64,000 bases of DNA from Paracoccus sp. SMMA_5_TC. GTDB lineage: Bacteria; Pseudomonadota; Alphaproteobacteria; Rhodobacterales; Rhodobacteraceae. The notes under the pieces were generated by a model that saw only the letters and a list, made by a program, of their open reading frames with translations, did no database searches and was not told the DNA's origin. Where the stretch lies: the NCBI RefSeq assembly GCF_009696685.2, contig NZ_CP102355.1:1-64000 (forward strand), in the 5' to 3' direction. The position numbers and the translations under genes are program-made. Numbering within the stretch: the stretch's first letter is position 1; the number at the start of each line of letters is the position of its first letter. Positions 61,303-64,000 of the stretch are shown here, piece after piece.

Positions 61303-62712
61303 CTAAAGCCCCCGCACCGAAGGCCGCAGATGCTGCGCCGCCGGCGCGATCATCAGTTCGTGCAGCGCCCAGACCAGCGCATCCAGCCGGTCGGGCGAGC
61401 CCTTGCCGTCATAACCGGCCACGGTCATGCGGCACATCTGATCCTCGAGCAGGCCGAGGCCACGCAGGTGATGGATGCGCCCCTGTTCGTAAAGTGCGGC
61501 AACAGGTTCGGCCCTGAGCCCCTTGCCGCGCCCAGCCCGCAGCGGCCGGAACGGCACCAGCGGATCGATCTGGCGGATCACGCTTTCGATCAGATCGCCG
61601 CCCTGGTTCACCTCGGCCACAAGACGCTCGGCCCCGTGGCGATGCATGGCGGCGATGGCGGCGCGCGCCCAATCGGTGGGGCTGCCCCGGACCGACGCGT
61701 CCTCAAGCACATAGGCGCGCCAGTCGGTCACCGGACCGTCGCTGACCACGCCCGCGACAATGATCCCGCATTCGTCCGATGCCGCGCCGGCGGTCACCGC
61801 CGGGTCCACCGCCACCACGATCCGCGACAACCGCGGCGGCGCATCGACCCGGCAGCGTTCGAGCATCGCCGTGCTCCACAACGCACCCTCGACATCCTCG
61901 AGCAGCAGGCCTTGCAACTCTTGCCGGCCCAGTCGGGTGCCGGCATAGCGCGCCTCGACCTCGGTCAGGAAGCTTTCCGCCAGATAGGCGCGGTTGGCGT
62001 CGGTCGGCGCATGGGTGGTCACGGTCGAGGCATTGCCCAGAATCCGCTTGAGCACGCCGACATTGCGCGGGGTGGTGGTGACCACCTGCTGGGGATGTTC
62101 GCCCAGGCGCAGCGCGAATTGCAGCATGTCCCAAGTGTCCTCGGCCTTCTTCCACTTGGCCAGTTCGTCCACCCAGGCCGCGTCGAACTGCGGACCGCGC
62201 AAGGCTTCGGGCTCATGGGCCGAAAACACCTGCGCGGTGGCGCCGTTGGGCCAGACCAGCCGCCGCCGACCCGCCTCCCATTGCGGGCGGCGGTCCGGGG
62301 GCGAACAGGCCAGAATGCCGGATTCGCCAAAGACCATGACATCGCGCGCCTGGTCGAAGGTCTCGCTGACCAGCGCCACGCGATGGGCGCGGCCCGGCAT
62401 CTCGGGGCCAGCGCCCTCGACCTGGGCGCGCACCCATTCGGCGCCGGCGCGCGTCTTGCCCGCGCCGCGCCCGCCCATGATGACCCAGGTTTTCCAGTCC
62501 CCCGCAGGCGGCAGCTGATGCGGCAGCGCCCAGAACTCGAACAGCCATGGCAGCGCGGCCAAGGCATTGTCGCTGAGCCCGCCCAGGAACGCGTCAACCT
62601 CCTCCGGCTCGGCGCAGGCAAGCCAGGCGGCGCCCGATCTCGTCTCGTGCCGCGACAAGGTCGAGTGCGCCTGCACCGACCTGTCCGGCAGCATCCTTGC
62701 GAAGCTTGTCAA
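61303..62712 (-). CDS. GTA terminase large subunit (orfg2-like)
   Basis: TerL is the packaging motor and nuclease. The 469-residue product has Walker A GGRGAGKT at 80-87, Walker B FDAAWVDELAKW, and the nuclease Asp in VVAVDPAV. The start is set to TTG at 62712, which has AAGGAG five bases upstream; the first ATG (62694) has no proper ribosome site. With this start, 119 bases overlap the small terminase gene in another frame. The start is the least certain part. Confidence 0.92.
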   Translation of the reverse strand: MTSFARMLPDRSVQAHSTLSRHETRSGAAWLACAEPEEVDAFLGGLSDNALAALPWLFEFWALPHQLPPAGDWKTWVIMGGRGAGKTRAGAEWVRAQVEGAGPEMPGRAHRVALVSETFDQARDVMVFGESGILACSPPDRRPQWEAGRRRLVWPNGATAQVFSAHEPEALRGPQFDAAWVDELAKWKKAEDTWDMLQFALRLGEHPQQVVTTTPRNVGVLKRILGNASTVTTHAPTDANRAYLAESFLTEVEARYAGTRLGRQELQGLLLEDVEGALWSTAMLERCRVDAPPRLSRIVVAVDPAVTAGAASDECGIIVAGVVSDGPVTDWRAYVLEDASVRGSPTDWARAAIAAMHRHGAERLVAEVNQGGDLIESVIRQIDPLVPFRPLRAGRGKGLRAEPVAALYEQGRIHHLRGLGLLEDQMCRMTVAGYDGKGSPDRLDALVWALHELMIAPAAQHLRPSVRGL

Positions 62713-62953
62713 CCTTGCTCCTTTCCTCCAGCACCAACTGGGCGGCGTCCCGCAGGGCGCGCACCAGCTTGCCGGATTCCTTCAGTTCGTCGGTATTGCC
62801 TGCCTCGATCTTGCGACGCAGGCGGTCCAGGTCCGCGGCATAGGACCGGAACAGCCCGTCCGCGATGTCCAGCACGCTCGTGTCCGGCGCTGCATCGCCG
62901 GGCATGAATGGTCCTTCCGGCGGTTCGCACCCCGGGTCGAAACTGATCGTCAT
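62594..62953 (-). CDS. GTA terminase small subunit (orfg1-like)
   Basis: This 119-residue protein is the first gene of the cluster. It has a disordered N-terminus (about 1-40) and a helical core (LFRSYAADLDRLRRKIEAGN, then KLVRALRDAAQLVLEERSK) like RcGTA g1, recognised as a small terminase. The ATG at 62953 is preferred to a GTG at 62989. It lies 48 bases after an intrinsic terminator and overlaps the large terminase gene by 119 bases. Confidence 0.85.
   Translation of the reverse strand: MTISFDPGCEPPEGPFMPGDAAPDTSVLDIADGLFRSYAADLDRLRRKIEAGNTDELKESGKLVRALRDAAQLVLEERSKVDKLRKDAAGQVGAGALDLVAARDEIGRRLACLRRAGGG
62718..62723 (-). promoter_or_regulatory. Ribosome-binding site for the TTG start of terL
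   Basis: AAGGAG (minus strand, 62723-62718) is five bases from the TTG at 62712. It lies inside the terS coding region. It is the reason for choosing TTG over the downstream ATG at 62694, whose upstream bases (CAAGG, no spacing) are unsuitable. Confidence 0.55.
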
Positions 62954-63001
62954 TCGCTTGTTGCCCTGCCCTCGTGTGTCTGTCCGCACGAGCGAGACAT
63001 G

Positions 63002-63037
63002 AAAAAAGCGGCCTCAGGTCCGACGACCTGGCCGCTT
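63002..63037 (-). terminator. Intrinsic terminator just upstream of the GTA operon
   Basis: On the minus strand, AAGCGGCC (63037-63030) pairs with GGCCGCTT (63013-63006), and an inner AGGTC (63029-63025) pairs with GACCT (63020-63016) around a GTCG loop, with a two-base bulge. Six T residues close it (63007-63002). It lies 48 bases before the small terminase start and 176 bases after mltG. It is the strongest terminator in the window by structure. Confidence 0.85.
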
Positions 63038-63055
63038 GCCCACCTCTCCCAGCAT
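63014..63055 (-). CDS. Candidate 13-residue leader peptide before the GTA operon
   Basis: The mini-ORF reads MLGEVGKRPGRRT and stops. Its ATG (63055-63053) lies at or within two bases of the predicted transcription start, so it could be translated as a leaderless message. Its stop codon (63016-63014) is in the terminator stem. A ribosome reaching the stop would cover the 3' arm and T-tract and could prevent termination. Coding status is inferred from position only. The codons also form the 5' arm of the hairpin, so the sequence could equally be conserved as RNA. Confidence 0.35.
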   Translation of the reverse strand: MLGEVGKRPGRRT

Positions 63056-63061
63056 GTAAAC

Positions 63062-63090
63062 TTTCTACCCCAGGGCGTTCGCAGAGTCAA
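63062..63090 (-). promoter_or_regulatory. Candidate sigma-70 promoter upstream of the GTA operon
   Basis: On the minus strand, TTGACT (63090-63085) and TAGAAA (63067-63062) are spaced by exactly 17 bases. The predicted start is near 63055-63057. A dyad AACCA-A-TGGTT (63096-63106) lies just upstream of the -35 element and could bind a regulator. The transcript would run into the mini-ORF and terminator before terS. Confidence 0.6.
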
Positions 63091-63176
63091 CGCAAAACCA
63101 ATGGTTGCGAAGGGATTGCTTAATCATCCTGCATTATCAATGACTTGCCAGACGCAACACCCCGGCGCGCGCTGAT

Positions 63177-63203
63177 GCAACGGGGCGGGAATCGCCCCGT
63201 TGC
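63177..63203 (-). terminator. Hairpin after mltG
   Basis: GCAACGGGGCG (63177-63187) pairs perfectly with CGCCCCGTTGC (63193-63203) around GGAAT. It lies ten bases beyond the mltG stop. There is no T-run on the minus strand, so it may act as an RNA 3'-end stabiliser or a weak terminator. Confidence 0.55.
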
Positions 63204-63212
63204 GCGCCCTCT

Positions 63213-64000
63213 TCAGTCGCCCTGAACCGGCGACAACGGCTGACCGCGCTGTCTTTCGATCTCGCGCCAGCGGGCCACGTTGCGATTGTGTTCATCAAGC
63301 GTGCGGGCGAATGCGTGCCCGCCCGAACCATCGGCCACAAAGAACACGTATTGCGTATCCTCGGGGTTCAGCGCCGCCTCGATCGCGGCCTTGCCGGGAT
63401 TGGCGATCGGCGTCGGCGGCAGGCCGTCGATCTGATAGGTGTTGTAAGGTGTGCGACGGCGCAATTCGCTGGCGCGGATGCCGCGATCAAGCACCCCCTG
63501 ACCGTTGGTGATGCCATAGATCACCGTCGGATCGGTTTCCAGCCGCATGCCCTGGCGCAAGCGGTTGACAAAGACGCTGGCGACGACGCGCCTTTCGTCC
63601 GGCACTGCCGTCTCCTTCTCGATGATCGACGCCATGATCAGCGCTTCCTCGGGTGTCTGATAGGGCAGACCGGGCGCGCGTCGTTCCCAGGCATCGGCAA
63701 GGATTCGCGACTGGCGCTGGCTCATTTCCTCCAGCAGCTTGGCGCGCTCGGCGCCGCGGGTCACGTCATAGGTGTCGGGGGCAAGGCTGCCTTCGGGCGG
63801 CACGGCGCGCACATCGCCGGCCAGGAAACCGGCCTGGCGCAACCCCTCGACCACCTGCCAGCTGGTCACCCCTTCGGCGATCAGGATGCGCAGCCGGGCG
63901 TCGGGCTTCTGCTCGGCGGCGGCTATCGCCTCAGGCGCGGGTTCCTTGGCGGGATCGTATTTCGCCTGTTCGGCAAAAACCCCGGTCTGCGGGTCCAGAT
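63213..64000 (-). CDS. mltG: Endolytic transglycosylase MltG (3' part)
   Basis: MltG cleaves nascent glycan strands and sets their length. The visible C-terminal part of about 260 residues continues off the window edge. It shows IAEGVTSWQVVEGL, the active-site block ASIIEKETAVPDERRVVASVF with the catalytic Glu, and RLETDPTVIYGITNGQG. The N-terminal membrane anchor is not in view. It is on the same strand as, and just upstream of, the GTA cluster. Confidence 0.93.
   Translation of the reverse strand, partial: LDPQTGVFAEQAKYDPAKEPAPEAIAAAEQKPDARLRILIAEGVTSWQVVEGLRQAGFLAGDVRAVPPEGSLAPDTYDVTRGAERAKLLEEMSQRQSRILADAWERRAPGLPYQTPEEALIMASIIEKETAVPDERRVVASVFVNRLRQGMRLETDPTVIYGITNGQGVLDRGIRASELRRRTPYNTYQIDGLPPTPIANPGKAAIEAALNPEDTQYVFFVADGSGGHAFARTLDEHNRNVARWREIERQRGQPLSPVQGD

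Follow-up and report, generated by a model that had tools for sequence, protein, structure and literature searches.

In the window, the 64,000-nucleotide stretch of Paracoccus sp. SMMA_5_TC analysed here (contig NZ_CP102355.1, positions 1 to 64,000), the gene transfer agent (GTA) operon is headed by a compact module in which a hairpin and a T-tract, of the form of an intrinsic terminator, stand between a promoter and the first gene. GTAs are domesticated phages that package random host DNA, and the programme that produces them is self-destructive. The module is conserved in most genera of the family, its stem covaries, its occurrence is confined to the heads of GTA operons, and in the model species Rhodobacter capsulatus it coincides with the GTA promoter and with the site bound by the regulator GafA. 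Our preferred reading, to which we give a probability of roughly one half, is that the promoter depends on GafA and that the intrinsic terminator close behind it forms a second lock, which antitermination would open.

Anatomy of the leader

The order on the minus strand is mltG, promoter, hairpin with six T residues, second hairpin, terS and terL (Table 1). A first-pass annotation of this DNA had proposed a TTGACT-N17-TAGAAA promoter whose predicted start falls at an ATG, and a 13-bp hairpin with six T residues ending 48 nt before terS, at the head of a GTA operon. All of these are present, and promoter, terminator-like structure and location are each conserved in relatives. The ATG (63055-63053) begins at the seventh base after the -10 element, which is without the final T and was rated poor. 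By sequence and conservation, the hairpin and T-tract correspond to an intrinsic terminator lying 3' of a promoter within a regulated unit.

Folding of the window RNA gave a z-score of -3.09, one of 200 shuffles being as good. Among hairpins with a T-tract on this strand between 46000 and 63250, that of the leader has the lowest energy (-21.8 kcal/mol, T6), and the runner-up (-20.9 kcal/mol) stands before TTTCTG. A simple promoter and terminator scanner listed neither the leader promoter nor the leader terminator, a miss that fits its printed rules, by which a T is required as the last base of the -10 element and the stem must stand directly before the T-run. Rfam contained no family above its gathering cut-off (best 17.4 bits versus 45), and terS had no match in Pfam. 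After the mltG stop codon lies a GC-rich inverted repeat (about 63177-63203), which has no T-run and is distinct from the leader terminator.

Table 1. Coordinates of the leader elements and neighbouring genes in the window
Feature	Position	Strand	Basis or remark
-35 element TTGACT	63090-63085	-	TTGAC almost unvaried in both the genus and the family sets
-35/-10 spacer, 17 nt	between 63085 and 63067	-	sequence
CGnnCG box in the -35/-10 spacer	63076..63081	-	conserved; candidate GafA loading site
-10 element TAGAAA	63067-63062	-	often TATAcc in other genera
Predicted transcription start	63055, +/- 1-2 nt	-	spacing; R. capsulatus start site reported inside the homologous fragment
Start box CATGCTGGGAGAGGTG	63041..63056	-	conserved; family form CAnGCTRGRAGARRTG
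Putative intrinsic terminator hairpin, 13 pairs, 2-nt bulge	63037-63006	-	folding, covariation
T-tract, six T	63007-63002	-	sequence
3' arm of extended stem (partner about 63048-63041)	62994..63001	-	covariation, pairing tests
Second hairpin CTCGTG...CACGAG	62992-62971	-	shortly upstream of terS
terS (GTA g1), first gene of the operon	62594..62953, ATG at 62953	-	homologues 3' of the element in many relatives
terL (GTA g2)	61303..62712	-	Pfam Terminase_6N/6C
mltG (YceG-like), upstream gene whose 5' end lies beyond the window	63213..63998	-	ORF list, Pfam
13-codon mini-ORF MLGEVGKRPGRRT, then stop	63055-63014	-	judged non-functional as a conserved peptide

Conservation in the genus, the family and viral catalogues

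A 637-nt query found a DNA match in 78 of the 81 genus genomes, own genome counted, and the noncoding block at about 63099-62962 was often a separate match where the start of terS failed to align. The genus alignment of 78 sequences (A1, 77 rows) keeps TTGAC, the CGAACG spacer box, TAGAA, CATGCTGGGAGAnnTGGGCAAGCGGCC, the hairpin and the T-run, and then GCTCGTGCGGACAG...CACGAG; the loop and the inner stem vary and the outer arms are almost unchanged. Conservation runs past the terminator as far as the second hairpin. An upstream CAACC/CAACT motif that looked conserved by eye was counted in just 21 of 57 and 34 of 135 sequences and is not claimed as part of the module; nor is a promoter-proximal pause in the start box, which was weighed as well. 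No second copy was found in the own genome, where the search gave a single match at E 1e-3. The genome (G000, contig C1) carries three more GTA_TIM matches beyond the GTA of the window, near 675443, 812081 and 1864549, which are probably GTA-like prophages; the leader model described below matches the genome once.

BLASTN with the window leader reached 38 of 198 family genomes. Diverse leaders picked by hand (R1, 38 in number) served to build a covariance model, which matched 203 of 295 family genomes, or 202 of 294 genera, at E 1e-3 or better, with one match per positive genome except for two in G326. In a draw at the level of the order, 101 of 149 genomes matched, all those listed belonging to the same family and one of them (G415) having two matches. 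The draw at class level comprised 210 genomes, of which two matched, both being family members; one family member (G289) was negative, and the 207 other genomes were without a match under stricter filters, 188 of them not itemised singly.

GTA-type TerL is encoded just downstream in 56 of the 58 model matches examined, the exceptions being the weak matches L176 and L177. Named loci, 80 in total, were retrieved with a capsid sequence from a PDB search. Of these, 68 were testable, in that they include terL and 450 nt or more of upstream sequence; searched with the model (E up to 1), 65 of them gave a match no further than 700 nt ahead of terL, and L234, L263 and L270 gave none. When eight low-scoring or negative named leaders were read by eye, a clear hairpin and T-run stood before terS in L214, L236 and L252, in which the start box has diverged, the model is weak or negative, and the hairpin and T-run are retained; L234, L263 and L269 showed no clear hairpin and T-run. 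Outside the genus, each C and G of the CGnnCG box is kept in 85-94% of 135 sequences. In one locus (L109:1509-1636) the promoter and start box are intact, and the hairpin end and what follows it have apparently been replaced, perhaps in a rearranged GTA head.

The INPHARED cultured phages gave no blastn match to the window leader, a search that a distant copy could escape. In IMG/VR, 97 stretches (L271-L367) match the leader pattern, and 94 of these have GTA-type TerL downstream, which indicates that GTA clusters are catalogued there as viruses. Among the exceptions, L319 ends too soon, and the match in L339, which lies within a coding stretch, is apparently due to chance. The intact-looking leader at L292:1725-1778 is followed by no TerL in 7.7 kb, and apparently belongs to a broken or invaded cluster that keeps the promoter module.

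Pairing in the leader and the frame of the mini-ORF

A hairpin below -6 kcal/mol with a T-tract occurs in 79 of 79 genus sequences and 132 of 139 others, compared with three of 100 mononucleotide-shuffled controls, and the mean hairpin energy is about -21 to -22 kcal/mol. Covariation in the stem, which the first-pass annotation had proposed looking for in relatives, is present. With the structure taken from one row of the set, which biases the comparison in its favour, 92.3% of cells are paired in set A2 (38 rows), versus 90.3% in shuffled versions (0 of 500 as high) and 44.5-59.1% when the structure is slid; both-side changes occur in seven pairs, versus 2.5 in shuffled and 1-5 in slid versions. 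In A5, a second set of 39 named leaders aligned without structure and subject to the same bias, 93.5% of cells are paired (shuffled 88.9%, 0 of 500 as high; slid 40.3-59.5%) and 28 cells have both-side changes (shuffled 6.4, slid 3-14); counted by pairs with both-side changes, one slid version (10) beats the structure (9). The second hairpin before terS is also supported by the covariation analyses.

Eight outer pairs form an extended stem between the start box and sequence lying beyond the T-tract; in the window's own sequence this stem has a mismatch. In the extended stem 95.5% of cells are paired, versus 50.7-72.7% when slid, and its covariation score was reached by one of 500 shuffles; just two pairs have both-side changes, a number reached by 13 of 500 shuffles and equalled, in pairs or cells, by slid versions. 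When partners were permuted among 211 sequences, none of 1000 permutations reached the observed pairing, and the gain is small (5.91 versus 5.66 of seven pairs, and 4.62 with shuffled letters). The most telling cases are AGACrTG opposite CrTGTC in L175, L256, L152 and L242, and AGAATTG opposite CAATTC in L218. RNA polymerase reaches the far arm only once it is past the T-tract, so that this pairing, if selected, acts in read-through RNA, and persistent G-U pairs argue against a mere DNA palindrome. On these alignments, part of the element probably works in the read-through RNA.

The first-pass annotation had placed control in translation of the 13-codon ORF, a ribosome on its stop codon blocking the hairpin, and had looked to conservation of the ORF in relatives. 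The ATG at the predicted start is present in 78 of 79 genus sequences, which favours such a leader-peptide attenuator, but neither start, length nor stop is kept more widely. Outside the genus the ATG occurs in 76 of 139 distinct sequences (seven of 225 could not be anchored and were excluded) and is missing in 63, where it is replaced by AAG (44), ACG (10), AGG (5), TGG (3) or TCG (1). Read from the conserved ATG in the 78 genus genomes, the frame is 13 codons long in nine, 11 in 24 and 8-10 in four; it passes the hairpin (28 amino acids or more) in the other 41, with 11 in frame to the terS end. The third positions are near-frozen in the genus (CTG 100%, GGA 100%, GTG/ATG 100%, GGC 97%, AAG 98% and CGG 100%), GAA/GAG having the sole third position that varies, and first or second positions change in three codons. 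No repeated regulatory codon was seen in the genus translations. Frozen third positions beside varying first and second ones indicate selection on nucleotides and not on a peptide, and a stalled-ribosome mechanism thus fails across the family. A short ORF conserved in both start and stop was not found, and the leader peptide was rejected on the loss of ATG outside the genus, the wandering stop and the frozen third positions; we regard translational attenuation by this route as extremely improbable.

GafA, antitermination and other readings of the module

The element is present in R. capsulatus SP108 and DSM 1710 (covariance model, E 1.3e-24 and 1.9e-24), where the ATG of g1 lies 129 nt after TTGAC. 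In the passages of Mercer and Lang (2014, PMC3999984) covered here, a reporter with a deletion from -129 to -100 gave 2.8 versus 14.0, with 3.2 for the no-promoter control; this essential region corresponds to module positions 0-29, that is, to the module promoter. The same passages mention, between -74 and -51 upstream of RcGTA orfg1, a putative RNA stem-loop, which is the module's terminator hairpin, and report that deletion of -73 to -46, which takes in the hairpin, left mean fluorescence 'very similar' in two replicates. So similar a mean implies that the terminator is not a limiting gate in wild-type stationary cultures. GafA is reported to bind one of five probes, 76-125 nt upstream and with the transcription start inside it (Fogg 2019, in part), a probe equivalent to module positions 4-53; its C-terminal domain has been placed at that promoter region, with specific N-terminal binding on both flanks (Sherlock and Fogg 2022, in part). 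R. capsulatus also has a separate hairpin with a T-run upstream of the promoter.

The own genome has a single DUF6456 gene, of 396 amino acids from its ATG, and a sequence search up to E 1 found no solved structure of GafA. DUF6456 is present in 269 of 295 family genomes, and the element occurs in 199 of these 269 versus four of the 26 without DUF6456, as counted from lists in which six of the 26 negatives were deduced from gaps. The four are G193, G239, G275 and G371, assemblies of 50-460 contigs. The remaining 70 of the 269 had no detected element under stricter filters. Shared ancestry and genome incompleteness may account for the co-occurrence.

Parts of this layout recur in known systems. 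Caulobacter GafZ, which is homologous to the C-terminus of GafA, has been described as an antiterminator, and a putative binding element for it was placed between -35 and -10; the possibility that GafA has this activity too was raised in 2024 by the same authors (PMC11150451, in the passages covered); the published RcGafA model, as far as covered, has activation through the omega subunit, which counts against an antitermination reading. According to the same passages, C. crescentus PgtaT (GafYZ) is alike in being a GTA late-type promoter with a homologous regulator, an element between -35 and -10, and a terminator that the regulator passes, but there three 150-bp repeats that follow the first gene make up the terminator, whereas here a single hairpin precedes that gene. 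The CGnnCG box of the window is conserved, yet it is not the near-palindromic ZBE of Caulobacter. In the AlpA/alpBCDE system of P. aeruginosa (PMC7969949, in part) the binding element also lies between -35 and -10 and an intrinsic terminator between promoter and first gene, and a lysis programme runs in a subset of cells under the influence of ppGpp. Antitermination was demonstrated for AlpA and is putative for GafA here, and the likeness drawn here is one of layout. Lambda Q at pR'-tR' likewise loads at a promoter that has its terminator downstream (partly from PMC11150451).

In the mechanism that we propose, the module would be the family's GTA promoter, of the sigma-70 type and in need of GafA. 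The intrinsic terminator, whose T-tract begins about 45-53 nt after the start, would halt stray transcripts before terS. GafA would be made in the few GTA-producing cells, and its DUF6456 C-terminal domain would bind the -35/-10/start region, the CGnnCG box being a candidate loading site by analogy with the ZBE of Caulobacter and the ABE of AlpA, which are placed likewise. Bound GafA would aid initiation and then stay with RNA polymerase as an antiterminator, and the loaded polymerase would transcribe past the terminator and on into the operon. A long hairpin would then form as the read-through RNA refolds, its 5' end pairing with sequence on the other side of the former T-tract; together with the second hairpin before terS, this long hairpin would probably cap or stabilise the mRNA.

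We favour this two-lock model on account of GafZ antitermination, the AlpA layout, the presence of a DUF6456 gene and its co-occurrence with the element. A second lock predicts the 2014 deletion result, since producers would be unchanged and non-producers silent with the promoter off; the same result is equally expected from a hairpin without regulatory effect, and our confidence is therefore moderate. The first-pass annotation had mentioned a regulator or antiterminator as an alternative to the ribosome, and of its proposals on mechanism this is the one that survives best.

The put-type antitermination RNA of phage HK022 offers a further parallel. There too, a phage-type operon transcript opens with two hairpins, and the difference is that the first hairpin of the present leader bears a terminator T-tract. 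It is conceivable, though in our judgement unlikely, that the module is a dual-state RNA switch, in which the 5' sequence flanks a short terminator and then, once a GafA-loaded polymerase has passed, becomes an arm of the longer hairpin, forming with the second hairpin a put-like cis RNA for processivity or mRNA protection across the operon in most genera of the family.

Other readings assign the hairpin a different role. The module could be a structured 5' leader whose main selected function lies in the read-through mRNA (shielding of the 5' end, control over the translation of terS, or a site for RNase III), with termination a by-product. The extended stem, which spans the T-tract, has a larger share of paired cells than slid versions and pairs better than permuted partners, agrees with this, as do the support for the second hairpin and the similar mean expression after hairpin deletion in R. 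capsulatus; but such a leader needs neither a T-run kept nearly everywhere nor a conserved spacer, the extension signal is modest, and we consider this reading rather unlikely. The first-pass annotation had also offered a small RNA, roughly 55 nt long, which in the form weighed here would run to the T-tract and act in trans. Promoter, hairpin and T-tract do make a complete transcription unit and the start box is highly conserved. A purely trans-acting RNA has nevertheless lost ground, and is quite improbable, given that sequence conservation, with some covariation, extends past the T-tract to the second hairpin, that the element stays before terL, and that 'gene transfer' and 'terminase' are absent from the main texts, as far as covered, of the P. 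denitrificans and R. pomeroyi small-RNA papers.

The remaining two readings concern the promoter and what lies upstream. Lambda pR' is constitutive, and a strict equivalent would have the terminator as the only gate behind a constitutive promoter. The near-consensus -35 element points that way, as does the statement, in passages on Caulobacter, that a near-consensus -35 makes the GTA promoter active regardless of GafYZ, at about sixfold lower strength. Against it stand the poor -10 element and, in the part of the 2014 paper covered, the absence of any derepression of the reporter mean on hairpin deletion, in which R. capsulatus differs from lambda; we hold this strict reading to be highly improbable. 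A terminator serving solely to insulate the operon would, from its place just upstream, block read-through from mltG. It lies, however, downstream of the operon's own promoter, and separate structures stand above the R. capsulatus promoter (a hairpin and T-run) and after mltG in the window (an inverted repeat); we consider a purely insulating role quite improbable.

The hairpin of Mercer and Lang (2014) is the same hairpin in the same place, seen there in one species and used in a deletion control; the word 'terminator' is absent from the main text, and the passages covered do not trace the structure in relatives. Among open-licence full texts we found no prior description of the conserved promoter-proximal terminator or of the extended stem, the hairpin itself appearing only in the covered part of PMC3999984. 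Neither 'phage' nor 'terminase' occurs in the main text, as far as covered, of PMC2965389, a paper about premature terminators, and the passages of PMC11150451 name no cis terminator for R. capsulatus. What was already known, on these partial texts, is the hairpin, reported from one species in 2014 and uninterpreted there, and the idea of RcGafA antitermination, published in 2024.

With the combined sequence and structure model, GTA heads can be located in viral catalogues and in genomes that lack annotation. The suggestion of antitermination by RcGafA becomes directly testable through the terminator placed immediately after the promoter, present in R. capsulatus as it is in 202 of the 294 family genera. 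As far as comparative data can tell, the conserved post-promoter terminator suggests a second lock on the self-destructive GTA programme.
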